64,000 nucleotides of DNA, from assembly GCA_020543525.1 (NCBI GenBank), contig JAHYIO010000001.1, positions 2,852,001-2,916,000 of the forward strand, given 5' to 3'. Origin of the DNA: Coriolopsis trogii (taxonomy: Eukaryota; Basidiomycota; Agaricomycetes; Polyporales; Polyporaceae). Made by a program: the position numbers and the translations under genes. Below the pieces are notes generated by a model. It searched no databases and was not told where the DNA came from. It was given only the letters and a program-made list of their open reading frames with translations. Positions 28,131-63,982 of the stretch are shown here, piece by piece. Position 1 is the stretch's first letter. Each line of letters opens with the position of its first letter.

Positions 28131-29886
<1,756 letters not shown>

Positions 29887-30224
29887 ACGGCTTAGACGTG
29901 GTCTCTCCTTCCCTCGGTCTCTTGTCGCTTTCTTTCCTCTCATCTCGCATGGTATCCCTAACTCGCACTGTGTTCTTACGATCATCCCCACATCCATTGT
30001 TGTATTCACGATCACGAAGCATGCTTTGGGTCGTCGCCGACCCAGGCTCATGTTCTGTAACGTCGTTGTGTTGTGTAGAGGACGAGAAGTATGAAACGAA
30101 TGTAGCTTTGCTCTCTCTTTTATCTTTTTCTACCATCATTGGAAAACATTCGTGTGTGTGTGATGTCAGGTTTTCCTCGCCAACATGGCGCTGTACGGTC
30201 CTAGAGTTACTAATACAATCAAGT
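29887..30224. other. Intergenic, convergent 3' ends
   Basis: 338 nt between the convergent EF-1alpha and dienelactone hydrolase genes, presumably the two 3' UTRs. A GTGTGTGTG run lies near 30152. Confidence 0.4.
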
Positions 30225-31705
30225 TCAGCATACGTGCTCAATCTCCTTGCCGTCGTCGACTCTTTCCCCCAAGTCCCTCCCAGCGGTCCGCTCGAACACT
30301 TCCATCATGAAAGTGAAGAGAGACCGCGTCAACGCAGCGTCCCAACGACCCTTGGAAGACTCATCGCGGACGAAGGCATGTTGTGCCTGTACTTCGAGGA
30401 ACTGAGACGATATTAGCTGCGTCGTTCTGGCTTCGCACGGCACGTCACATACCGATGTGGTCACATTAGCGTTTTCGAGGGTTTGACGGATAAGATCTCG
30501 ACCTGCACGAGGAACATGGGTGTCCTGGGACGGATGTCATCATTCTGGAGCTATGCATACCCCCCCAACGTACCTGTTTACCGAAGATCATCTATGGCAG
30601 TGCGCAAGTAAGGCTACGGGAAGCAAGACGAATAGAAACGAGAAGATACGTACCACCAGTTCTCCCTTGCCGGTAAGGTCGCCGTTGCGGACCCGGAGGA
30701 GGGAATCGTCGTTCTTGCCTTTGCCAAGAGTGGCGGAATGGACGTCGGTGGCGAAGAAGCAGACGGATGCGAGTACACGAGAGTTGAAAGCAGCCTGAAC
30801 GCAGAATGTTATCAATGCTGGATGAGTCGTTCTGATCAGGCGTACCCGGAATGCCTGTGGTCCCGTGTTAGGTCATGCAGAAAGGCTCGTTGTTGCGATC
30901 GAGAGACGTACCAGATGCCCTCCAAGACACATTCCTGTGGCTACATGCCGTACGTTTTCGGTTTATAAGCGTGATCGGGAGCCATATGGTGAGAACACCC
31001 ACCGGCGATGCGACCGTTGCAGTTCTTCAGCGAGCAGAGAAGATCAATCGCAAGGGTAGCATCCTGCGCACTGTTGAACTACCACTCATGAGGCATTGGT
31101 TGCTAGCGAACCTCGTCATAGGCCGCGACTGTTTTCTCAATCTGCGTTCAGTAGTCAGATATTATTCGATGATGTTGTGATACCGAAATACGTGCCTTGT
31201 ACTTGTTCCCTCTGTCGGTGCCTGGTATAACATTGTACCTAGCACTTAGCGCATGGTACCAAGTTCCGTGATAAGGTACCTACCTTCGACGTCGTACGGA
31301 ATAGGCTCGGGGCCCTCAAACTCGTGATAGGTAGACGGGCATGCTACATCGTAAGGCCCTCAGCTATGTATGTTGTGTCGAGAGAGAAGTAGCTCATACC
31401 AACTACGTATCCTTGGCTGGCGATCTGACCTGCGAAGCGTTCCACAGGTCCAGTCACTTGGTAGATTTCGCTGCGACACTGAGTAAGATCAGGCTTCGAA
31501 GCCCCACAAGTTTTGTGCACCTGAAGCACACAACGCCTATATGAAGGAGTTACAGATTAGCTGCGGCCGATATGGTAGTCTGCGTACCGGGGAATTTCGC
31601 ATTGGGATACCCTGGAACAGTGGGCGCGATGACGAAGATCCTGATAGGACGACCGTTGGGATCGAGCTTTGTCGGGACATCGTGGTAGGTCTTTGTGATC
31701 AGCAT
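30225..31705 (-). CDS. Dienelactone hydrolase family alpha/beta hydrolase
   Basis: Carboxymethylenebutenolidase-type hydrolase; members open dienelactones in chlorocatechol breakdown or act on other small esters. Thirteen exons (31705-31588, 31536-31521, 31470-31400, 31343-31284, 31221-31196, 31141-31112, 31063-31003, 30940-30912, 30854-30846, 30794-30654, 30591-30574, 30524-30453, 30401-30225) give 275 residues. Catalytic residues fit the DLH triad: Cys132 in [13 protein letters not shown], Asp194 in QDTHVPRAG and His225 in [11 protein letters not shown]. The N-terminal strand leads to [19 protein letters not shown], and YHEFEGPEP follows. Exons of 16, 9 and 18 nt are required to keep these motifs. 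The intron after KYK appears to use a GC donor. No signal peptide, so cytosolic. The natural substrate cannot be told from sequence. Confidence 0.88.
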
Positions 31706-39390: not shown

Positions 39391-39530
39391 ATATGGGCCG
39401 CTGCACGCTAGATCGGGAGCGACATACAGGGGTTCGCCTTGGCTGGGCGACAGCGCCTGTGACGTTGCAGGCAGACGACGACATACGTTGGAGCAGCCAC
39501 GAGCGGATCGATTAGTCGCATGTAAGAACG

Positions 39531-39629
39531 GACATTAGCCTCGTCTATCCCGCGCTCTAAACAGACATTAGCCTCGTCTATCCCGCGCTTTGAACAGACA
39601 TTAGCCTCGTCTATCCTGCGCTCTAAACA
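39531..39629 (+). repeat. Three tandem 33-bp direct repeats
   Basis: Units at 39531-39563, 39564-39596 and 39597-39629 share the core gacattagcctcgtctatc and the ending cgcgctctaaaca. Unit 2 differs by two neighbouring bases (tt for ct, g for a) and unit 3 by one (t for c). The array lies between the stop of the aminotransferase gene (39664) and the start of the 974-residue protein gene (39390), so it could sit in the promoter of the latter. There are no spacers, so it is not a CRISPR array. Confidence 0.95.
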
Positions 39630-39663
39630 GAAGTCTAGCCACTAGAGCACCCATCGACCACCC

Positions 39664-49453: not shown

Positions 49454-49828
49454 TAGACGCAGAGTTGACTACATGACGCAGATACGATAGATGTAGCCTT
49501 ACAGATCTTGCTCTTTGCCTTGGACGACGCATCTGTACCAATATTTTTGCTGTTTCTTGATATCCTGAGGGTTAATGATCGCAATGCTTTGGAATAAATG
49601 ACCATGCGTGCCGAGCGTGACTTCCAGTGATCGCTTCTGGGGTTTGTCGCGCAACCTACAGGCGCCCATAGTACCGCTGCCGCCAGGCTCTCATATGGGC
49701 ATGCGCACTGTGGCTATAGTCATCGACTTGCCCACTCCCTCCTTCTCCCCCGATCCCCGTCTTCCTCTCCCTTGAACCCCTCCTCTCCTCTTATCTCTTG
49801 CTCTACGTCCTGCTGCTGTACGCACACC
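49454..49828. other. Intergenic, no gene seen
   Basis: 375 nt between SNF4 and the VAM7-like gene on the same strand. The right end (49735-49800) is CT-rich and is the probable promoter and leader of the second gene. Confidence 0.35.
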
Positions 49829-50941
49829 ATGACTGCCATTCAGGCCATCCACATCCGCGGGTGGGAAGACCGCCCGGAGCCCAAGCCGCACGTCGTCTAC
49901 CGCATCGAAATCCAAGCGTCCGTCCGCTCCTGGCATATGTGGCGCCGATATTCCGAGTTCGCAGACCTGCACGTCGAGCTTACCAAGTCCTGCGGCGCAC
50001 CCCCGCCCGCACCCCTCCCGCCCAAGCATACGTTCGCGATGTTCCGCTCGAGCACAAACCCCGCGCTGCTCGAGGAGCGCCGTGCGGCGCTCGAGGCCTA
50101 CCTCCGCGCCATCCTCGCCGCCCGGGACGACGTCTGGCGGGAGTCGTTCGCGTTCCGTGACTTTCTCGGGGTACCCGTCGGGAAGCAGGACGGGCTGGGT
50201 GTCGGTGGAGCTGGGGGAGCAGGAGGGGGAGCGCAGTTCACCGCGTCGTCCTGGCTCGACGAACACCAGGACGTCCAGGCGCGCGTGCGCGACGTCCGTG
50301 CGGACATTAACCGGCGCGACGCGCTCGCCGACAGCGGAGACCCCTCGGGCTCGCATCAGGCGAACGTGCAGGCGAAGAAGAAGCTCATCGGGGTCCTCGC
50401 CCGTGTCCGCGGGCTCGATGCGGGCCTCAAGACGCTCGCGCTCGGCGGGCTCAGCGAGGGCGAGCTGCGCCGGAGGACGGACATGGTCGCGCGGCTCAGG
50501 GACGACTGCGACAAGCTCGAGAAGATCGTCGCTGTGGGCCGCACGGCTACGCGTGGGGTCGGTTCATCTGCAGATGCGAACCCTGCCCCTGCGGCGGACC
50601 GTGAGGCACTCCTTGGGCCCGCGACGGGCTCCCAGATGCCTGGGGGATTCAGCAGGCCGGTCGCGAGGGTGTTTGGGAAGGCGCCGCAGCCGCAGGAGAC
50701 AGAGCAGACGCGGCCGTTGGATGACCATGGGCTCATGCAGCTGCAGCAGATGCAGATCGAGCAGCAGGATTCACACCTCTCGCAGCTGTCTACCATCCTG
50801 GGGCGGCAGAAGCAACTAGGACTTGCAATCAATCAGGAGATTAGGGAGCAGATAGAGGAGCTAGATGCCCTCACGAACGAGGTTGACAATGTAGGAGGGA
50901 AGCTTACCTCTGCCAAGAAACAGTTGAACAGACTCGGATGA
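49829..50941 (+). CDS. VAM7: PX-domain Qc-SNARE, VAM7-like
   Basis: Soluble SNARE for homotypic vacuole fusion, held at the membrane by its PX domain binding PI3P. An intronless 370-residue frame. The PX domain fills residues 1 to about 115: YRIEIQASVRSWHMWRRYSEF contains the RRYSEF phosphoinositide site, PLPPKHTF is the PPK loop, and LEERRAALEAYLRAIL follows. The middle is helical, with a Gly-rich insert at about 130. The C-terminal SNARE motif starts LMQLQQMQIEQQDSHLSQLS with the zero-layer glutamine in the usual place and ends at LNRLG without a membrane anchor, as in Vam7. The coding region is very GC rich. Confidence 0.92.
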   Translation: MTAIQAIHIRGWEDRPEPKPHVVYRIEIQASVRSWHMWRRYSEFADLHVELTKSCGAPPPAPLPPKHTFAMFRSSTNPALLEERRAALEAYLRAILAARDDVWRESFAFRDFLGVPVGKQDGLGVGGAGGAGGGAQFTASSWLDEHQDVQARVRDVRADINRRDALADSGDPSGSHQANVQAKKKLIGVLARVRGLDAGLKTLALGGLSEGELRRRTDMVARLRDDCDKLEKIVAVGRTATRGVGSSADANPAPAADREALLGPATGSQMPGGFSRPVARVFGKAPQPQETEQTRPLDDHGLMQLQQMQIEQQDSHLSQLSTILGRQKQLGLAINQEIREQIEELDALTNEVDNVGGKLTSAKKQLNRLG

Positions 50942-51067: not shown

Positions 51068-52254
51068 TCATGAGTCTATATGTCTATGATCCTTCTTTGT
51101 CAAGAACCGTCCGACACCCTGCACACGAAAATCAGACCATGTGACACACGATTGTTCAGCGACATACCTCAAAGCAACCGATCATAATTCCACACGCTGG
51201 AGCAATTTTCGATATACGGGGCACAATACCCACGTACAACGCACCAATCCCTTCGTTCCGCAGGATTTCGGCGACGAGGGCAAGAGACGATGCCGAGCGT
51301 GTCGTTGCGGACATTAACATCGCTTGTCGTCGTGTCTTGAGCACGTCGAAAGGCGACGTCAACAGCGCCGCGGCGGTTCCGCTCAGCGCTCCACTGACGA
51401 AGGCGACCCCAGCACCCTCATAGCCAAACTTGTTCAACCTTCGTTTAACAGTTTCGTACCCAGCCCAGTATAGCCCACTGAACGGCACGTCACGCCAGAG
51501 TGTTGGACCAAGACCGCGCCAGAGGTAATGCCACCCACGAGATTGGGCGAGGCTACGGATGGAGACAAGGACAGAGCGGAGGGTATGGGGGTGGTCGGGA
51601 GATGGTGGTGTTGATTGGAGATTGGTCCGGACGAGTTCCAAAGGTGACATTAGAGACGTGATAGTAGTTCGTGCGATGATACCGGCGGAAAGGGGAACAA
51701 GGGAGGCGGGAAGTATTGGTGGTAGAGTGACATTCAATAGGTGGTCGTAAGTGAGCATGTAGCATGTCGACGAGGGTACGCCTATGAATCTGTGAAACCG
51801 GGAGTGTAAGCGAGGGTCCGGCACGGACAAATTGTGCCTCACTTACAGTGAAGTCGCTGCACCCTTCCACAAGCCCGCTATGCCTTCCGCCCGCCATACG
51901 TGCTTGACGGCATCGTAGAAGCCGTTTACCCGTTCTGTCTTGTAAACGCCGTGGTCCCATATGCAAACTACCTCGCCTTCCACGGTTCTCACTAATGAGG
52001 ACATGTTCCGGACGCATGATGAAGGCACAGCCTGACAACATGTATTTGGCGGAGGATTTGGGAAGAGAGGGCCAGGACGTGGCGGCGGTTGGGTCTGCAA
52101 CCGCGTCTTCACGACGTCGAAAGGGGTCACTGTGGGGGATTGGTGGCTCAGTAAATGTGAGTTCATCGAATGTGTATGTAGGGGACTTACTAGTCAACGC
52201 GGTGACCGTGGACCCTGTCGCCGCTGCCAACAGCTTTGCTTCAAAGGGCTCCAT
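51068..52254 (-). CDS. MTM1: Mitochondrial carrier, MTM1/SLC25A39-40 type
   Basis: Inner-membrane carrier linked to mitochondrial glutathione, manganese and iron handling. Four exons (52254-52191, 52129-51847, 51789-51168, 51118-51068) give 339 residues. Carrier signatures P-x-[DE]-x-x-[KR] appear as TPFDVVKTRLQTQ, SPLELVRTNLQS and SPFDVLKTRRQAM. Subfamily marks are the Cys-rich loop NTCCQAVPSSCVRNMSS, the EVVCIWDHGVYKTERVNGF block and IGVPSSTCYMLTYDHLL. Ends GCFEGVGRFLTKKDHRHIDS, where the last exon supplies the final helix end. Yeast MTM1 was first tied to Mn activation of Sod2; the glutathione role is known from mammalian SLC25A39. Confidence 0.92.
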
Positions 52255-52499: not shown

Positions 52500-52973
52500 A
52501 TGGAGTATTGTCGGTTTTCACTGGTTTCTAGCAGCATCCCAAGCAAACTCGGAGCTAATACTCAAGGCATTATGCCAGCTCTCGAGATCATCCCACAGCT
52601 TTCGCCGCTTTATGAAATGATGTCAGTCCTTCAAGTCGATGCCAGTCCGCGTGATTATGTGGCAAGTCTGAACATGGCCATGAGTGCTGGTAGGTCTCAG
52701 GCAGGCCCGTGAATCCAACAGTAGTGAATCATGAGCATATCGTGACGGCACGCAAATCTAGATGAGTACTTCATCATTGGGCGGGGAAGATACAGGATGC
52801 CGGAGGGCACGATCTTCGTGGCCCGGGATATGGGGCATTGTAGTGCGATCGTTGGAGACACGGAACCGGTACAGTATTGGATGCCCGAGTGTTTGGCTCC
52901 AGGTTCCAAGTTCCAGGTTCCGGGTTTCAGGACTCTACTCGTCCTCGATGAGATGCAGGTATCTCCAGATTGA
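52500..52973 (+). CDS. Possible small two-exon gene, not recognised
   Basis: Candidate exons 52500-52689 and 52762-52973 join in phase (donor G|gtaggt, acceptor tctag) to give 133 residues. Upstream are a CACGTG at 52448-52453 and a TATATA at about 52457-52462, about 40 nt before the ATG, a good promoter layout. The product has no domain that I recognise (RGRYRMPEGTIFVARDMG; QYWMPECLAPGS). Its last approximately 50 nt lie antisense to the final exon of the RhoGEF copy ending at 52927. Could be a remnant or a real short gene; evidence is motif and phase only. Confidence 0.3.
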
Positions 52974-55900
52974 TCGCTGCAAATGCTGTGGGTCAGAATC
53001 GAACCCCAATACGTCTCACTCGAGTGACTCACCTTGACACCACGCCATTGCTTCGGACGTCGAAGGTGCATCAAAGTAAAGAATAGCCTTGTTATCAACC
53101 AAACGAAGCGCTGCGTATCGTTGTTAGCCTCAACGCGCAATGTCTGCGGATGCAATGTGACACTCACCGTTACCATGCTCGATGCTCGCTGGCTGAGGAA
53201 GTGTTTGCATCCGGAGCACAGCCCAGAGGTCAACACTGCAATGCGGGTCCTGCCCGTCCGAAGGGTCCCTACAAAGCACCAGCAAATCGTTGCACAATAT
53301 GCCGATGAGGGACCGAGGAGTCAGCTCTGGCGACAAACATTCGACCTCGACAGACGAAGCGTCGCCCTGAGCGTCGATGACCTCAAAGGCCACCGTAGCC
53401 TTCCGCACCACACGCGTGAGCTGCAGAGATCCGTCTAGAATGAGTCGGCTGTGCCGAATGATTAGCATCCAGTAAATGGACCGTCAAGATCACAACGCCG
53501 CTTACCGAAAAGGCTGCACGAGCGGGCTAGGGAACTTGCCACATATCCTCGATTGCCACTGGACGAGTCGGCGACGAGACTCAGCTTCGCGCTTGCCCTC
53601 GTGCATGTTCGTAGCGAGAGACGCAATCTCCGTCAACGCACGCTCGATCAGATTGTCTGGATACGCATTCGATGGCGGGCTGCTGCGAGCGAGCTCCTCC
53701 AGCTATCATAACCTATCAGCATCAGATCAAAATTGACAGAGTGTATGCGGTGGCTTACGAGCAAACGGTAGCGGGGAATGCGCTGCAAGGGAAGCATCAG
53801 GTAACCTTCCAGGTTCAACTGCGAATGTCTAGGATTCATCTGGCAACGTTTGAGATATGCCTTGATACTTTTTCGTTGGCTTGCCGTGATGGTGGCGTGG
53901 TTGAGTGGCATGCTAGTTGGAAGTCTGGTGTGACCGTGACTGAGAGCAGATGCCTTCGAACGGCGAAAGGGGATATTGGATGAAGGAGACGGTGACTGCA
54001 TCCCAGATGTCATCATAACTTTGTCAGACGTCCACATCTTGATATGCTCGACAGCGTCATCGAAGTTACTGAGAGGTGGAGTTAGCACCCGTGACAGTGA
54101 CAATGGCTTTAAGCACTTGCTTGATATAAGTCGAGTACATCTTCATAAACGCAGCATGCGAGACGAACGTGTTCGCAACATCCCGTGCCACGTTCATCGA
54201 CAGCTGCTGATTGATCTCGCTCGGGCTTCGAGACATTATAGGGCTGGCGGCTCGTTCGAGGGCGGGCAGGAAGATCTGCTGATGGAAGACGAACAGGGCC
54301 TCAACCCCTCCAAACACGATCTTCCGCTCCTGTGCCGGAACGACAGTGTCCTTGCTCGAGGCCACGCCACTCAACGTGTAGGTGGTGGCGAGAGCAGGTT
54401 TGATGTAAATATCGACAAGTTCCTGCAAGCCCATGACATATGTCCGTTCGGTCCTGTCATGCACGAATGCTCAGCACCAGAAGCTAGACAGACGAAACCT
54501 GATAGCGTGCGCACTCAACAACTTCGCGAATGACCTCTACCCGCTTGGCTTCGTCATCTTCATATACTTTCTCCTCGTTACTCTTTTGCCTGTCTGGCCA
54601 TACAGTGACGACTTCGCTGAGCTGCGACTGTAACTGACTGAGGTGATACATATCGCGCAAGTACGACATGACTGGTCGTAGAGCATGAATGTGAGTTTCG
54701 TGCGCCGACTCTTCCTCGTCTTGTTGCGTGTTCGGAATATGGACTGCTGCCTTTTCTGCATCCTGGTTGCTGCCTGTCGCCAGTGCGATCGGTTTTGTTG
54801 ACGAGCTATCCCAGGAAGCCGTGTCATTCAGGGGGAAGGTACGCCTTCCCACAGTTGGGGAAAGCGGGGCAGGAGAGAACACAGAGGAGGTATACTTCTT
54901 GGGAGGCATTCGGACAATCAGAGGTTCCACGAGCGCCTTCCAAGGCCCTTGGAAAGGGTTCCCATCGACGAGCAGTGTCTCTAGTGCGGGCAACACGCAC
55001 AGCCAACTCGGCAATGAATGCATCTTGTTCCTCCGGATGCTCAGGGTGTGCAGCTTCTCCAGGGACGCCAGACCGGACGGGAGAGTGCTGATACCGGTTG
55101 CATCCACCATAAGAACACGGAGATCGGTCAACGTCGCTAAGAAGGCTGGCACAGTATGGAGCGGATTTGACGCGATGTTCAACTCCTCGAGCTTGACGCA
55201 CATAGCCAGCGATGGTGGGAGTGAACTCAGGACGTTGTTAGATACGTCAAGGCAGAGCAGGGAAGAGCAGATCTGAGGTAATGTCGTGGAAAGGAAGGAG
55301 GGCATAGCGTTTGGCGTGGAGGACGATCCTAACATCAAGTGCGTGGTGCCTGTACGAGGCGGAGCCGTTGGTTAATCGTGGCTGCTAACATGCGACAGGA
55401 ACGAAACGAACCCTGGGGATCATGCAGTCGCACGAGGGGAGTATCTTCTGCAGGCCTGACAATCACTGCACTACCTGTTCCCGCCAGTAACACGAGACTG
55501 TTGGGTTCCTTTCCCCGTTCGTCGTTCTCGTGATCATCGGAAGAAGTACCGTCGCAAACGTTGCTGCTCAGTCCAACTTCGTCGCGCTCGTCCGGATGTT
55601 TCCACCCAATCTCGAGGCATGATGAGGCGCGAAGAGGTGGGAGGGCTTCTTCCGCTTCACTATTGGCTTGTGATTTCTGATAGAAGTCAGACCAACGCAT
55701 CTGAGACACCGGATACCGAGACATGGCAGTAACCCCAGACTCTTTCACAGGAAGCTGAGTGACATCGTCGGCTGTTATCCCCAGTCCCACACCTGACTCG
55801 TCGTCCTCATAAACCACATGGACATGGTCATAATCACCTGATTCGGCAGACCAAGTGTATGCTGAGGATCGTGTCGATGCAGAGGAAGATTCTGCGGAGG

Positions 55901-56100
55901 AGAGGGAGGGCGCGTTGGTACCGATATGCCACTGTGATGGCCTCCAGTATGGGTAAGGATCAGGGAACTGCGAGGGATCAGGGAGAGGGACGACAGATGT
56001 CGAGCGCTGAGGTGATGACGGGGAAGCAACTTCGTCGCTGGATGGTAAGCCTGAGAGTGAACTGGTTCCAGGCGCCTTTGGGAGGTAGTTCACGTCGCAT
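52927..56100 (-). CDS. LRR-RhoGEF (DH-PH) paralogue, short copy, 5' truncated
   Basis: Tandem duplicate of the gene at 58590-63982. Exons 56050-55412, 55349-54515, 54453-54121, 54068-53759, 53702-53506, 53448-53168, 53110-53033 and 52976-52927 keep every splice phase of the long copy and contain no stop. Domains: leucine-rich repeats (LEELNIASNPL; LEKLHTLSIRRNKMHSL), DH (VMGLQELVDIYIKPALA; NLEGYLMLPLQRIPRYRLL) and PH-like C-terminus. DH proteins activate Rho GTPases. Relative to the long copy it lacks the N-terminal exon and about 450 residues of the linker after the LRRs. No ATG is in frame at the 5' end of exon 2. A 7-nt first exon (56100-56094, intron gtgaac...ctctcag) would give MRRLPSSDE and 909 residues in all. 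Intact but possibly without its own promoter. Confidence 0.7.
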
Positions 56101-56124
56101 GATATAGATGCATGAGTCTTGATA

Positions 56125-57549
56125 CTACCGACTGTGTGTGGCCATGGACAGGCCGTTTAGACAGATCAACCAAGTGATAGGACTCCCGGGCGTACCACCA
56201 TCCTCATCAACTAGTATTTCCGGAGACAGTGTTTCCAGGAGAGCCACGAAGTTGTCAGGAATATCTCTGCCCTGCAGTGCAAGTATCATTGACTGATCGC
56301 ACCGAGTTAAAACGGTAATCCGACCTTTAATACATGATAGAGGTCGCGCTCATCTGCGCAAGCGACCTCAGCCTCCGAATACTAGTGAATGGGTGTTAGA
56401 TATCTTGCTATATGGTATGGAAACTGTGGCACCTCAAGGATGTAGTCGAGAAGACAATTAACAGGATCGAACGTCTGTCGGCATGTTTGCTCAGAAATCT
56501 TCGCTTTAATGAGGAGGGACACACCTCTTCCCTGTTTTCTGACTGGTCGTCATCCACGAAATCGTCCGCTGTCAATTGGATCGGCGATCGGTCCGTGCCA
56601 TCCTCTGCGTCGTTCTCGTCATCTCCACCAAGGTCATGAAAACCTGCAGCTGCACGCATAGCAATTGATTTCCACAATCTTCGATGCTTCATCTTGTAAT
56701 AATGCAGGAAGAGACATTGATCAAACCCATCGGCCGGACTCGGAGTACCATCATCTCTCCAATCCAGTACGCGCTTCCGAGGGCCCATTCGGTGGAAGAC
56801 ACTGGCGTCCATGGAGCGTGCAAGAGAGACACGGAACTCGCCAGAGACTGAAGGGACAAAGCAACCTCCGGCAATGACCAGCTCTCCGCTAGCGCTGCTG
56901 TTATAGAACGCCGCTTCTGCCCATACCGATGACTTCGTGAAGCCGGAAACGAAGATGATATCTTTCTCTTCAAGCCCGATGCCCAGTACGTTGTTGGCGA
57001 AATTGCACCAGCTAGCTATATGGCGACGAATATATTTTTGGATGTGGACCTTGCAGTCGAGGTATGTGCGATGCGCAGGCTCCTTTAGCATGAGCCACGC
57101 GCCCGATTGCTGGCTGCATGAATACCGGAGACCAGCACCCGCGCTCACTCCAAGTTCGCTGCCAAAGGACGTTTGGGTGAACTGTACCGCCACACGTCTT
57201 GATGTATAACATAGACCACATACCTTGCAGATGCGCCAGTGGAAGTTGCGATAGACTGAAGACTTTTGCTGTGTAGGTGCTGTTGGGTGATCTCATCCTG
57301 GCGGAAAACGAGCATCGGATTGGAAGGAGCAAAGATATCAAAATCGTCTGGCACGCCACGAACGACGTTTGCAGGGTCGTCTGCTGAACGCATTGTACTG
57401 AAGAGGAAGGAGAATGCACCATCTCGAAGATACCCAACATCGCCTAGATGCACTTCACCAGAGTCAGGAGATGGCTCCGGGAACCACAATGGATGTCCAT
57501 AGCCAAACGGGATGAGCCCCTTTGCGTACAAATCCCAAGGCAAGGCCAT
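56125..57549 (-). CDS. Agaricomycete-restricted family protein, function unknown
   Basis: Five exons (57549-57224, 57158-56525, 56474-56433, 56381-56325, 56271-56125) give 401 residues. The start MALPWDLYAKGLIPFGYGHP continues to LWFPEPSPDSGEVHLGDVGY, a signature I recall from a large, uncharacterised family of mushroom-forming fungi. The second block has AGAGLRYSCSQQSGAWLMLKE and NVLGIGLEEKDIIFVSGFTK. After splicing the C-terminal part reads FDPVNCLLDYILE and SEAEVACADERDLYHVL, which also fits the family. No enzyme motif, signal peptide or membrane segment. The stop lies only 24 nt upstream of the possible start of the truncated RhoGEF copy. A further intron at the last gtacgc (56193) is possible. 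Function is unknown. Confidence 0.75.
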
Positions 57550-58589
57550 GTTGGTGGGAGAACGGAGAGGAAGAGGAAGGTCGGCGGGTCGTAAGCATAG
57601 GTGCGACGAGCACGGCTCTTATGCCTCTTCTCCTGACAGGCAATGCCTTCGAGGAAAATAAGGCCATCAAACCTTGACCGGAAGCTCGACGTAAACAAGG
57701 CACGGCCTTGGGGTTTTTGTGCACCGGTTCGATCGGTACACATCGCCTTATAATGCGCAGTCTCTCTGACGCAGCTACAAGACGCCATGTCTAAGAGGGT
57801 GCTGTCACCGGCATAGAAGGGACTTACTTCTCGAACGGGGGAAAACAACAACCCCAATGTTGAGAGGCGCCAGGCTTGAACGTGATCCATATCTGTCATG
57901 CTGGGAACCGTGTCCAACATCTACAAATCAGGTTGCCTATACACGTCGCGTTGGCCATGCTGAATGCTAAGCACAGGAACCTGGAACTTACATACACGGC
58001 TGTGTGTGACTGAAGAAAGCACTATGTGACTTCACATGTCACCCGAGATATTGGCATGGTAAGCTACAATGATGCTTGACCCGTTCACCTGAGTTTGACA
58101 CGCCGACGCTGTGATCACAGAGCGCAATACGGCCACAGCCTGCACGCATCGAAGATGTCATCCATTACGTTACATACCTGTACAACGTAAGCGGCTTCCG
58201 AGGATATGTGCGTACCACTCACCTTGACTCGCAGGGAATGACACCGGGTCCCCATCGGGATCGTCTCGCACCCGGTCATCGTGAAGGTATGCGAGTATAG
58301 ATGGATTATCGACATAGCCGGGCAGGTTAAGTACAAACCAGTCTAGAATAAAAATGATGCAGTGACAACCCATGATGCAGATGAGGATGGAACTAAGGGG
58401 AGAGGTAAGGAGCGGACAGCTGAATAGTAGGAACACAGATCTGCAGATGAGCGGGTGGGTGAGATACAGTACTAGAACGAGCGTGGGCATGGAGCCGGTC
58501 TTTGGCGGGCATGGAGGGAGAGCGGGTAGTAGTAATAAGACAGTGTCGGGTTGTTAGTGGAGGAGAGAGCCAAGTCAGGAGTTGAAAAG
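57550..58589. other. 1-kb gap between the family gene and the RhoGEF long copy
   Basis: Contains the promoter of the minus-strand family gene and the 3' UTR of the RhoGEF long copy. A minus-strand frame at 58170-58490 encodes a hydrophobic start (about 45 residues) followed by SILAYLHDDRVRDDPDGDPV, but I do not recognise it. A frame at 57444-57920 is merely the other frame upstream of the family gene start. Confidence 0.35.
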
Positions 58590-61500
58590 TTAAGTCTTCG
58601 AGGACGATGCAGGTATTTCCAGATTAATGGCTGCAAGCGCCATGGGTCAGAGGCAAAACTCAGGACGTCTCGGTCGAGCGACTCACCTCGACACCACGTC
58701 AACGCTTCGGATGTCGAAGGTGCATCAAAGTAAAGAATCGCCTTATTATCAACCAAACGAAGCGCTAGAAATCACCGTCAGGCTTTGCGCGGTCTCCGCA
58801 GACGCGACACTCACTGTTACCATGCACAATGCTCGCTGGCTGAGGAAGTGTTTGCATCCGGAGCACAGCCCAGAGGTCAACACTGCAATGCGGGTCCTGC
58901 CCGTCTGAAGGGTCCCTGCAAAGCACCAGCAAATCGTTGCACAATATGCCGATGAGGGACCGAGGAGTCAGCTCTGGCGACAAACATTCGACCTCGACAG
59001 ACGAAGCGTCGCCCTGAGCGTCGATGACTTCAAAGGCCACCGTAGCCTTCCGCACCACACGCGTAAGCTGCAGAGCGCCGTCCATGATGAGCCGGCTGCA
59101 GCAGAATGATCAACATATAATCAACTGGCGATCAAGAACAAGTGGCCGCTTACCGATGAGGCTGCACGAGCGGGCTAGGGAACTTCCCACGTATCCTCGA
59201 CTGCCACTGGACGAGGCGGCGACGAGACTCAGCATCGCGCTTGCCCTCGTTCATGTTCGTAGCGAGGGACGCAATCTCCGTCAAGGCACGCTCGATCGGA
59301 TCGTCCATGTACTCGTACATCGGCGGGCTGCTGCGAGTGAGCTCCTCCAACTACCATGGCTTATCAGCATCATACCGGGATTGACACACAGTATGTGGCG
59401 GCTTACGAGCAAACGATAGCGGGGAATACGCTGCACGGGAAGCAACAAGTAACCTTCCAGGTTCAGCTGGGAATGTCTAGGATTCATCCGGCAACGCTTC
59501 AGATACGCCTTGATCCGTTTCCGCTGGCTCGCCGTGATGGGAGCTTGGTTGCCCTGGCTTGTACCATCCGGATGAGAAGCGTTCCCAAGGCCAGCAGCCA
59601 TCGTCAAGCCAAGACCAACGAGTTGCGCACTGCTGGACGAGGGCGACAAGGCCTGGGCTCCAGACGGCGTCCCGGGCCTGTCAGACATCCACATCTTGAT
59701 GCGCTGAACCGAGTTATCAAAGTTGCTAAGTAGTGGTGATTAGCATCGGTGACAAGGACGGAGATCATATGCGCTCACTTGATGTAGGTCGAGTACATCT
59801 TCATGAACGCAGCATGTGAGACGAACGTGTTCGCAACGTCCCGCGCCACGCCCAACGACAACTGTGCGTCGATCTCGTTCGAGTTCTGAGACAATACAGG
59901 GCTCGCGGCGCGTTCGAGCGCAGGCAAGAAGCTCTGCTGGTGGAAGACGAACAGGGCCTCGACCCCGCCAAACACGATCTTCCGCTCCTGTGCCGGGACG
60001 ACAGTATCCTTGCTCGAGGCCACGCCACTCAACGTGTTGACGGTGGCGAGAGCAGGCTTGATGTAGATGTCCACAAGCTCCTGTAAGCCCTTGACGTACG
60101 TCCGTTCCGTTCTGTCAGGTAAAATGCTGAGTAAATGATCAATGAGGAGGTATAAGAGAGCACGCACTCGACGATCTCACGAATGACCCTAGCCCGCTTG
60201 GCCTTGTCATCCTTGTACTTCTTCTCCTCCCCACTCCCGGAGCCAGCACTGTCGGTAGTGGCCACGCTGTTCACCTGAGTCGTGCTTCCGCTCCGGCTCA
60301 TCCCGACACGGCCTTCGGTCGAGCGAAGGTTGACGGAATCAGGCCGCGAAGACGAACCACCAGAACCAACGGTCGCTACCGACATCTCAGAGTTGAGACG
60401 ACCTCCATCGACCATCGTCGGGCGACGCGAACGTGTCTGAGGTATCTCCGCTGGCGGTCCGCCGTACAACGACATCGTCTGCGACTGTGACTGACTGAGG
60501 TCGTGCATATCGCGCAAGTACGCCAAGACGGAGCGCAAAGCGCGTACACGAGCTTCTCTTGCGCGCTCTTCCTCGCGCTGTTGCATCTCCTGATAAGAGT
60601 CTAAGACGGGGCTTGGAGCGGCGGCAACAGCAGCAGGTTCCTCAGCATCTTCGACACTGTTGGTAGCGGTCACTCCTGGGACGAACTGTGAAGCATTGGG
60701 GATAGGGAGGGGCGCCATGTCAATAGGCAGGAAACTCCTCCTCTTCGCAGCCCGAGACGTCACCGTAGGGCCTGGAACGAGGAGACTGTTGCCCGGTGGA
60801 GAGATGGGGGCAAGCTTTGCAGCCTCGTTCGAAGCCTTCTTGAGCTGGTCAAGAGGGGAGATCTTGAGCAAGTCGCCCGAAGCCTTGCGAGAGAGATTCG
60901 GTGGTGGTTCCAGTGGCTGATCGTGTTGGAGCAGGGTGCCAGTGGTCGAGATACGCACGTCGAGAGCAGGGACCGAAGGCACATTTCTTGGCATTGGAGG
61001 ACGAGTGCCGGCTGACTGCTGAGGGCGCACCTGGGACCCGTGCATAGAGGTACGCGAGGGCGGGGGCGGGACATCGGGACGCATCTTGCCCATCGACATT
61101 TTCTTCAGGAATCCCCACCTGCTATGCTTATCCTTCTCGGCGTCCTTGTATCGCTGACGCGGAAGAGCCTGGTCCATCGGATACGCATTCTCTTGCGGGA
61201 AGATCAGCTTGTCGGTCGGAAGTGGTGGTACAGGTTCGACGAGAGTGTCCTCTTCAGTCGGACTGTCCCAGATGCTGCTGTCCACAGTCCGCCTCGACTT
61301 GTTGCTTAATGTCGGGGACATGGCACCCGCGGCCACACCAAGGCTCGCAAATCTGCGCGGAACGGACTGACTGTCCTGAGCAGAGGTGCCCATGTTGAGC
61401 AGATTCGAGCTGGACACAGACGTGACATACTCCGTGAGGGCGGCCCGCTGAGGCGATGAGGAGGACGATGCAGAAGGATTGCGCAGGGTCCCGGCGTAAG

Positions 61501-63982
61501 TCCTCCGTAATTCCCCAGCGCTCTTCATCCTGCGTACTTCTCTGTCGCTGTCGGGCGTGCCCTTAGCCGGGTTCGAGGGCCCAGCTTCGCTAAACATGGA
61601 CTGTGGCGCATTGCCGCTAGTGCGGCTCTTTTCAAAATAAGCGCGGTTGGGAGTGGTCCGGTTGCGGGTGAGGCCCGGCGAGGGAAGTGGACTGCCAGTT
61701 GGCTGGGCGGGCGCGGTTATGGAACGCAGCAGGTGTGGCGCACGAGGAGAAGTCACTGTCAAATCCTCATCCTCGTGACTATGACGGTCGCCGGAGGGAA
61801 TCGAGTCGGTCTCGTGACTGTCTGTGGTAGACGTCAATGTGCTGCGGAGACTTGCAGAGGGCAGCGGGAACATGGGAGTCGACGGGGGCTGCCCGGGAGA
61901 CAGAGGCCCTCGAGTAAGCAGGGGTTCCATGAGCGCCTTCCAGGGCCCTTGGAAAGGGTTCCCATCGACGAGCAGTGTCTCTAGTGCGGGCAACACGCAC
62001 AGCCAACTCGGCAATGAATGCATCTTGTTCCTCCGGATGCTCAGGGTGTGCAGCTTCTCCAGGGACGCCAGATTGGACGGAAGAGTGCTGATACCGGTCG
62101 CATCCACCATGAGAACACGAAGATTGGTCAATGTCGCCAAGAAGGTTGGCAGAGCACGAAGCGGATTTGACGCGATGTTCAACTCCTCGAGGTTGATGCA
62201 CATAGCCAGTGATGGTGGGAGCGCACTCAGGAAGCTGACAGATATGTCGAGACAGAGCAGGGAAGAGCATATCTGAGGTAGTGTCGTGGCAAGGAAGGAG
62301 GGCATAGCGTTTGGCGTGGAGGAGGATCCTACCATCAAGTGCGTGGTGCCTGTACGAGGCAGAGCCGTTGTTAATCGTAGCTGTCAAAAGACGACAGGGA
62401 CGGAACGAACCTTGGGGAACATGCAGGCGCACGAGGGGAGTGTCCTCTGCCCTGACAATTATCCCGCGGCCTTCTTCCGCCAGCAATGCGGCACTGGTAG
62501 GCTCCTCCTCAGGCTCCTCCGGTTCGTCGTCCTCATCATCATCAAAAGAAGGGTCGTCGTACGCTTCATCGTCGCTCAACCCTGCTTCGTCGCGTTCATC
62601 GGGGCGTTGCCAACCCATGTCGAAACTGGGCGAGCCGCGAAGAGGTGGGATGGCTTTCTCCGGCACAGGCTCCGCTTTGCTGTTGGCTAGCGACGAGGAT
62701 CGGGAGCGAATGCCGTTCTGATAGAAGTCGGACCAACGCGTTTGATCTACGGGAGTCCTACCTTGGGTCGTGGCAGTAGCCCCAGGCTCCTTCGAAAGAA
62801 GCTGGACGACGTCGTCGGTCGTGATCCCTACTCCCACACCCCTTCCCGACTCATCGTCCCCAAAGGCCACATGGACATGGCCGTAGTCACCTGACTTGGC
62901 AGACCCAGTGTATGCTGAGGACCGCGTCGATGCGGAGGAAGAGTCCGCGGAGGAGAGGGCGGGCGTGTTCGTGCCTATTTGCCACCGCGATGGCCTCCGG
63001 TAAGGGTAAGGATCAGGGAACTGCGAGGGATCAGGGAGAGCGACGACAGATGTCGAGCGTTGGGAGGAGGAATGAGAATAGCCCGAATCAGACAGAGCAC
63101 CCTCCTCGTCGTTGTTGCTGCTGGAGTACGCGGTGTAGCCGAGAGCGGAGAGAGAATGAGAATTGATGACGGGAGGTGGGGTCAGCATAGATGGCGGGGA
63201 AGCAATAACATGCCCGCTGGTTGGTGATAAGCCGTCGGGAGACTGGGGGTCGTAGTCGGAGTTCCAGTCGTCCTGGGAGATCGAGACCCTTGACGGGGTG
63301 GGCGCGCGGGGCCTTGCGAGCATGGCCGCTTTGCCGGGCGAAAAGGGAGAGGGTGGAGAGAGGGCGGAGAAGTGGTAGTACTCGAGTTCTGTCGAGAGAC
63401 AGCGGGGTCAGTCGGTGTAAAAGAGGGCGGGAGAGGGGACGTAAGGGAAAGAGCGTGGGCCGGTGCAGGAGGAGGAGGAGCACGGCTGGGTCGCGGGAGG
63501 ACAGAAGGAAGGAATGGACGGGTGGGGAGCCAGAGTGTAAGTGGCCGTCTACGGTAACCGTGACGGGCGACCTTCTTCTCTCGGCGCAAATTATTATACC
63601 GCGAGACCCAAAAGGGCTCTGACCGTCTGCGATCCACCGTGCACAACGTCGGACTCATGCACTCACCAGACCGTCTCTTCAGTATCCTCCTCTCCTCGTC
63701 GTCCGCCCAGAGCCCGAGCACAGGACTGTCGACATCCACGTCGTCATGGTCGGCTAGTCGGCCGCGCGAGGTGTAAGAGGAGTACAGCTCATCTTCGATG
63801 TCTGAGCCGTGCATTCGGCGTGACTTGCTGGCTGTCGGTCGAGGTTGACAGAGGGGTCCAGGCGGACGTCCAGAATGATGTACAGATGAAAGGAGACGGC
63901 GTGAAGGCGGGGAGTAGCGAGACTCAACCAGCCCGGAGATGCCGTCGCTAACACTTGTTACCACAACCGCTCTCGGGTCCAT
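58590..63982 (-). CDS. LRR-RhoGEF (DH-PH) protein, long copy
   Basis: Probable exchange factor for a Rho-type GTPase. Nine exons (63982-63667, 63388-62411, 62349-60168, 60111-59779, 59725-59407, 59350-59154, 59095-58815, 58764-58687, 58630-58590) give 1574 residues. The N-terminal approximately 430 residues are disordered with an acidic stretch (SFDDDEDDEPEEPEEEP). LRRs run from about 440 to 575 (LCLDISVSFLSALPPSLAM; LRVLMVDATGISTLPSNLA). A basic, Ser-rich linker of about 550 residues includes AEKDKHSRWGFLKKMSMGKM. The DH domain runs about 1135-1415, with its last helix in LNLEGYLLLPVQRIPRYRLL. The PH-like domain ends GAINLEIPASSSKT. The frame stays open upstream of the ATG to the window edge, so the true start could lie outside. 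Confidence 0.85.

Follow-up and report, generated by a model that had tools for sequence, protein, structure and literature searches.

In a 64,000-nucleotide (nt) stretch of the Coriolopsis trogii genome (contig JAHYIO010000001.1, positions 2,852,001 to 2,916,000; the window hereafter), it was found that a conserved gene for a leucine-rich repeat (LRR) Rho guanine nucleotide exchange factor (RhoGEF), copy B, has a 5′-truncated tandem duplicate, copy A. Two short pieces of A are best read as recent interlocus gene conversion from B. Moreover, A apparently forms the tail of a longer gene, X-A, whose N-terminal half (X) belongs to an expanded family with a predicted gasdermin-like fold. I put the probability of the whole account (duplication, X-A capture, and DNA-templated conversion from B to A) at roughly 0.64. 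It builds on computed features of the locus, namely the tract statistics, the direction of conversion, the intact frame, the truncated copy, the in-frame splice model, and the constraint upstream of the first ATG of A. The three elements lie head to tail on the minus strand, in the order B (63814-58590), X (57549-56196), and A (56131-52927), and their features are as follows.

58590..63814, minus strand: copy B, an intact LRR-RhoGEF gene of 9 exons and 1518 amino acids, from a splice model and Pfam RhoGEF and LRR matches; exons 63814-63667, 63388-62411, 62349-60168, 60111-59779, 59725-59407, 59350-59154, 59095-58815, 58764-58687, and 58630-58590.
52927..57549, minus strand: proposed chimeric gene X-A, an open in-frame model of 13 exons and 1312 amino acids; exons 57549-57224, 57158-56525, 56474-56433, 56381-56325, 56271-56196, 56131-55412, 55349-54515, 54453-54121, 54068-53759, 53702-53506, 53448-53168, 53110-53033, and 52976-52927.
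56196..57549, minus strand: gene X, the N-terminal domain (expanded family, gasdermin-like predicted fold), from 46 homologues and fold matches, with no Pfam family.
52927..56131, minus strand: copy A (LRR-RhoGEF).
56132..56195, minus strand: the 64-nt intron joining X to A, with a phase-1 donor GTACGC and an acceptor CACACAG.
55412..56131, minus strand: the fusion exon, with about 120 nt lacking similarity to B, followed from about 56009 by sequence like exon 2 of B.
54069..54120, minus strand: a GC-AG intron of A (donor GCAAGT) that is GT-AG in B, from the splice models.

Copies A and B align mainly in two blocks (1656 and 1164 columns), where they are 80% identical; the amino-acid identity is 74% and the synonymous divergence (dS) 0.53 over 901 aligned codons. 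Pfam finds an LRR region and then a RhoGEF (DH) domain in both copies (RhoGEF 114.9 bits in A and 116.3 bits in B). Several points of the first-pass annotation, which was made from the letters alone, were confirmed: seven downstream introns are shared, four exon pairs are equal in length (333, 197, 281, and 78 nt), and the linkers are unequal, the distance from LRR to DH being 135 residues in A and 584 in B. Exon 1 of B and the beginning of its exon 2 have no counterpart in A; similarity starts at 56009/63062. The reading frame of A has no internal stops, compared with 7.5-13 expected neutrally, which rules out A as a pseudogene. Outside the converted tracts, the ratio of nonsynonymous to synonymous divergence (dN/dS) between A and B is 0.20 in the core and 0.32 overall, an average over a slow B and a fast A.

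The joined X-A model has twelve introns of 50-65 nt, whose ends are GT-AG except for one GC-AG. The last X exon ends at a potential phase-1 donor (GATGGTG/GTACGC, 56195), from which the 64-nt intron leads into the open frame of A. A 145-nt intron (exon from 56050) had been considered for this junction and was replaced by the 64-nt intron, which matches the other eleven (50-65 nt); several of the A/B comparisons used the earlier start at 56050, which affects only residues upstream of the B-like part. The first in-frame ATG of A lies at 55724, and the B-like part upstream of it (56018-55743, 92 codons) has a dN/dS of 0.26. Since this region is under coding constraint, it is probably translated from further upstream. 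In three X paralogues of this genome, a potential donor matches this one in codon and phase (GTACGT in L034 and L035, GTGAGT in L025), as found by a motif search that would miss diverged donors. An equivalent intron of L034 would be 63 nt long, and the next residues would be VGTV versus VGSI in X-A, several L034 acceptors being possible. A appears to be the tail of X-A in one in-frame spliced model.

Are X and A nevertheless separate genes? The splice would then be a coincidence, and the 5′-truncated A would start at an internal site or from a first exon that has escaped recognition. Reading on from the last X exon with the intron left in does meet a stop at 56127-56125. However, separate genes fit poorly with the coding constraint 5′ of the first ATG of A or with a potential donor whose position and phase are common to X paralogues. 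In addition, a Daedaleopsis nitida protein is annotated with the same architecture, and one X paralogue has the domain end and WD40 repeats in the same open frame. Thus, I regard two separate genes as unlikely.

The D. nitida protein (P0129; C8Q80DRAFT_1205847, 1405 residues, a database gene model) is the only one of 134 GEF homologues found to have an X domain. More may exist; the GEF homologue searches covered the best 120 of 361 and the best 120 of 401 matches. Its LRR-DH linker is 186 residues long, while in the other 103 of the 104 measurable homologues the linker has at least 475 residues. It may be that the X-LRR-RhoGEF fusion is old and common to Daedaleopsis, and that later conversion by B rewrote A and masked the shared descent. 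In both proteins, the X domain is joined at its end to a GEF that is truncated within exon 2, and the linker is short (135 residues in A). However, outside the tracts A groups with the B of the window (ultrafast bootstrap 100), and P0129 as sister to A is rejected by the approximately unbiased (AU) test (p 1.7e-6). The X tree of 44 sequences, which left out 16 of the 46 X homologues and 5 of the 17 X loci of this genome, also rejects the X domain of P0129 as sister to that of the window (AU p 0.0045). Counted per orthologue, 4-7 sites unite A with D. nitida, 21-26 unite A with B, and 1-3 support the third grouping (12 of 20 orthologues). A as an orthologue of the D. nitida fusion was rejected by these two trees. 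Since sisterhood is rejected for both halves, the fusion apparently arose twice independently, and an old shared fusion seems improbable. A full-length D. nitida orthologue of B was not found among the matches listed.

The preferred reading of A as a captured duplicate is accompanied by evidence of conversion in the following segments.

54944..55072, minus strand: the LRR conversion tract, which matches B at all 129 nt.
54906..55384, minus strand: a wider low-divergence block from segmentation, in which 17/153 near-neutral sites differ and which starts inside intron 2.
53182..53417, minus strand: the PH-exon conversion tract, 236 nt with 3 mismatches, all silent.

The first-pass annotation had reported the near-identity of the PH exon and suggested recent gene conversion, and both are supported. 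Silent differences amount to 4/119 in the tracts and 155/525 outside (Fisher p 2e-11, for tracts picked after inspection), with 1/43 in the LRR tract and 3/76 in the PH tract (degenerate codons with identical amino acids). A scan statistic that allows for the choice of tracts gave p 0.0008 or less at all four scanning sizes (40 to 80 codons), and the longest runs of identical synonymous codons (42, 36, and 23) have permutation p values of 0.0004, 0/20000, and 0.0004. The dS is 0.03-0.05 in the tracts versus 0.39 in the remaining aligned core, while the intron divergence (K) is 0.20-0.63. In other words, tract divergence is about tenfold below that of the rest of the core, and introns and ordinary silent sites have diverged alike. 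The silent divergence of the tracts was checked against that of the introns, and the two are not equal. A broader claim, that the LRR codons are nearly identical, holds for the 129-nt run (55072-54944) but not for the exon 3 codons before it, where 13/73 have silent differences.

The direction of conversion was read from GEF protein trees of 20 orthologues and the D. nitida protein (Trametes pubescens, with no exon-7 segment, was left out). Outside the tracts, the branch of A is 0.215 and that of B is 0.0086 (526 columns). Inside the tracts, the branch of A is 0.008, based on 125 columns only and with a support of 87 for the A-B grouping. Since the fast A resembles the slow B only inside the tracts, the donor is B. 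The tracts are best read as recent interlocus gene conversion in the direction from B to A.

An alternative is that no conversion took place and that the tracts reflect silent-site constraint (RNA structure, regulatory, or antisense coding) or mutational cold spots. The tracts do fall in well-conserved protein segments. However, stretches of 30 codons elsewhere whose amino acids are at least 90% identical show a dS of 0.14-0.70, and the edges of the PH tract lie inside one exon whose adjoining introns 6 and 7 have a K of 0.52 and 0.55. In addition, the amino-acid branch of A is about 25-fold shorter in the tracts, while A is fast elsewhere. Constraint or a cold spot is thus very improbable as the source of the tracts.

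Was the template of the conversion genomic or spliced? It had been claimed that the identity is bounded by exons and that a spliced complementary DNA (cDNA) may have served as the template, and neither idea was borne out. The PH tract starts 31 nt into exon 7 and stops 14 nt short of the exon end, and the rest of exon 7 is at background, with silent differences in 5/12 codons, so that the identity does not follow the splice sites. Neither tract spans an exon junction, each lying within a single exon, and all seven shared introns are retained. Segmentation of 969 near-neutral sites (644 exonic and 325 intronic) placed 31 intron 2 sites in the LRR low-divergence block; this intron 2 start holds at the Bayesian information criterion (BIC) penalty but not when the penalty is raised 1.5-fold. 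Intron 2 differs at 9/52 sites versus 97/273 in the other six introns (p 0.0098, uncorrected). The statement that the introns barely align beyond their first nine bases is correct for introns 3, 4, 6, and 7 (57-65% aligned identity versus shuffled means of 59-62%) but not for introns 2, 5, and 8 (83, 70, and 70% versus 58-61%), and intron 2 alone exceeded the best of 200 shuffles. The tract edges, intron 2, and the kept introns favour a genomic template.

Two observations speak weakly against a genomic template. Silent differences are slightly fewer in exons 6 and 8 (13/75) than in exons 2, 4, and 5-core (85/280, p 0.029, uncorrected) or in exons 4 and 5-core (40/142, p 0.10), and introns 6 and 7 are at background (K 0.52 and 0.55) beside the near-identical PH tract. 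Both would suit a reverse-transcribed spliced B message that recombined with A, homogenising the exons and sparing the introns. However, exons 6 and 8 do not reach the low divergence of the PH tract (p 0.008), and, with tracts that stay inside exons, a diverged exon 7 end, a complete set of shared introns, and a block reaching into intron 2, a cDNA template is extremely improbable. Conversion bounded by exons needs no special template, because intron divergence may impede conversion and events are mostly reported for exons, according to a review on nematode paralogues (PMC3966223). The conversion near exon 7 probably kept to the exon because introns 6 and 7 had by then diverged too far for pairing.

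The X family has 17 loci in this genome (38.8 Mb in 39 contigs were searched). In fold comparisons of two overlapping X-family models, gasdermins top all four lists and account for 14 of the 15 rows of a match table, but with a Foldseek E of 4.7e-3 at best and a VIA Z of 8.8 at best. None of 31 X-family members matched gasdermin sequence models at E 1 or less, and no PDB sequence matched the X-family profile at E 1 or less. The predicted fold of the X family best resembles gasdermins, with no sequence match. About 80% of fungal gasdermins are reported to have a neighbouring S8 or CHAT protease (PMC10197012). No protease partner was found within 10 kb of the 17 X loci, in a genome with at least one CHAT and at least 11 S8 matches, or among the 20 open reading frames (ORFs) scanned in the window. 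WD40 propellers follow four of the nine other X loci scanned in this genome. In these cases, X domains precede same-strand WD40 propeller ORFs, possibly as single genes (C4 2435k, 2478k, and 2482k and C7 1367k; L034, L031, L035, and L039). A distant X homologue of Gloeopeniophorella (P0178) bears DUF6699.

The GEF half belongs to a family of agaricomycete LRR-RhoGEFs whose annotations (DH domain protein, grfa, or Rac GEF B) differ between species. In this family, B is a full-length member with 361 homologues at E 0.001 or better, the best 120 of which are 49-82% identical in the best local alignment. The closest named ones among the matches listed are from Lentinus tigrinus (82%), Lentinus brumalis (81%), and Dichomitus squalens (77%). 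A keeps LRR and RhoGEF but, unlike the family, lacks the N-terminus and about 450 linker residues and follows X. After the DH domain there is no Pfam PH match, and PDB DH-PH matches end by residue 305 of the 422 searched, about where the exon-7 tract begins. No third LRR-RhoGEF copy was found in the genome by a search with B DNA in which only the best candidates were scored. No literature account of LRR-RhoGEF in basidiomycetes was found, which is not proof of absence. A GEF homologue of Arthromyces (P0056, 1887 residues) has an additional PF05625 domain, and a merged gene model is possible. The ORF neighbours in the window are ordinary: elongation factor 1A-like (28965-30413), PX-domain (49631-50938), and mitochondrial carrier (51159-51842). 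There is also a direct repeat at 39526-39631 (40 nt, 95% identical, offset 66 nt).

I propose that a partial tandem duplication of the conserved gene B put the 5′-truncated A downstream of X. The phase-1 donor at the end of the X domain would join X to A, and A would form the C-terminal part of a chimera with a gasdermin-like domain followed by LRR, DH, and PH-position segments. A would have diverged fast and lost about 450 linker residues with its frame retained, while B hardly changed. Recent DNA-templated conversion from B, 5.6-7 kb distant, may then have overwritten a short piece of the LRR exon of A and another of exon 7 by ordinary DNA repair, with no spliced message needed. X may be an executor-like N-terminal module with exchangeable C-terminal modules, the truncated GEF copy having been captured via an existing donor. 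I infer a fused X-A transcript, pore formation by the X domain, and an active GEF part.

That tandem copies convert each other's exons is nothing unusual. More notable would be that an expanded, Pfam-unnamed, gasdermin-like family, members of which also adjoin WD40 repeats, has apparently captured a truncated Rho-GEF copy more than once. Somatic incompatibility in basidiomycetes is described as poorly understood (PMC8229728). A putative executor family with swappable tails would provide concrete candidate genes and, if the decoy reading is right, a fungal parallel to integrated decoys.

How does the locus compare with known systems? For conversion of the Caenorhabditis elegans fog-2/ftr-1 type, it is reported that surviving tracts cluster at 50-200 nt, that events are mostly seen in exons since introns diverge faster, and that 15% of detectable events extend into introns (PMC3966223). 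The tracts described here are likewise short, exon-biased, and between adjacent copies, whereas the acceptor A apparently lies within a chimeric gene and retains only some donor sequence. With the fungal gasdermins RCD-1 and HET-Q1 (PMC10197012, PMC12881547), X has in common the predicted fold, a patchy within-genome expansion, and a short helix after the domain in the models. It is unlike them in that no sequence similarity and no nearby S8 or CHAT protease were found, and in that its C-terminal modules are WD40 or LRR-RhoGEF, while RCD-1 and HET-Q1 have only a short inhibitory tail. A fusion of the X type with RhoGEF or WD40 was not found described in the portions of the fungal gasdermin literature at hand, which is not proof of absence.

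As a long shot, X-A might act as an immune-type receptor that carries an integrated decoy. Its executor would be gasdermin-like, and its sensing tail would be a duplicate of a conserved Rho-family GEF, which polypores would have captured on at least two independent occasions. Conversion from the true GEF would keep the LRR and PH-position surfaces target-like while A drifts. Retained conversion of the LRR and exon-7 segments would suit a decoy resembling B; neutral conversion explains it equally well. In plant NLR integrated decoys, a defence-type executor carries a copy of a conserved host protein. X-A would resemble them in combining an executor with such a copy, and it differs in having no NLR and in being proposed from sequence. 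Fungal allorecognition receptors are reported to sense a conserved host protein, for example HET-E with HET-C (PMC9815663). X-A, again without an NLR and proposed from sequence, would share with HET-E and HET-C the linkage of an executor to a conserved host protein.
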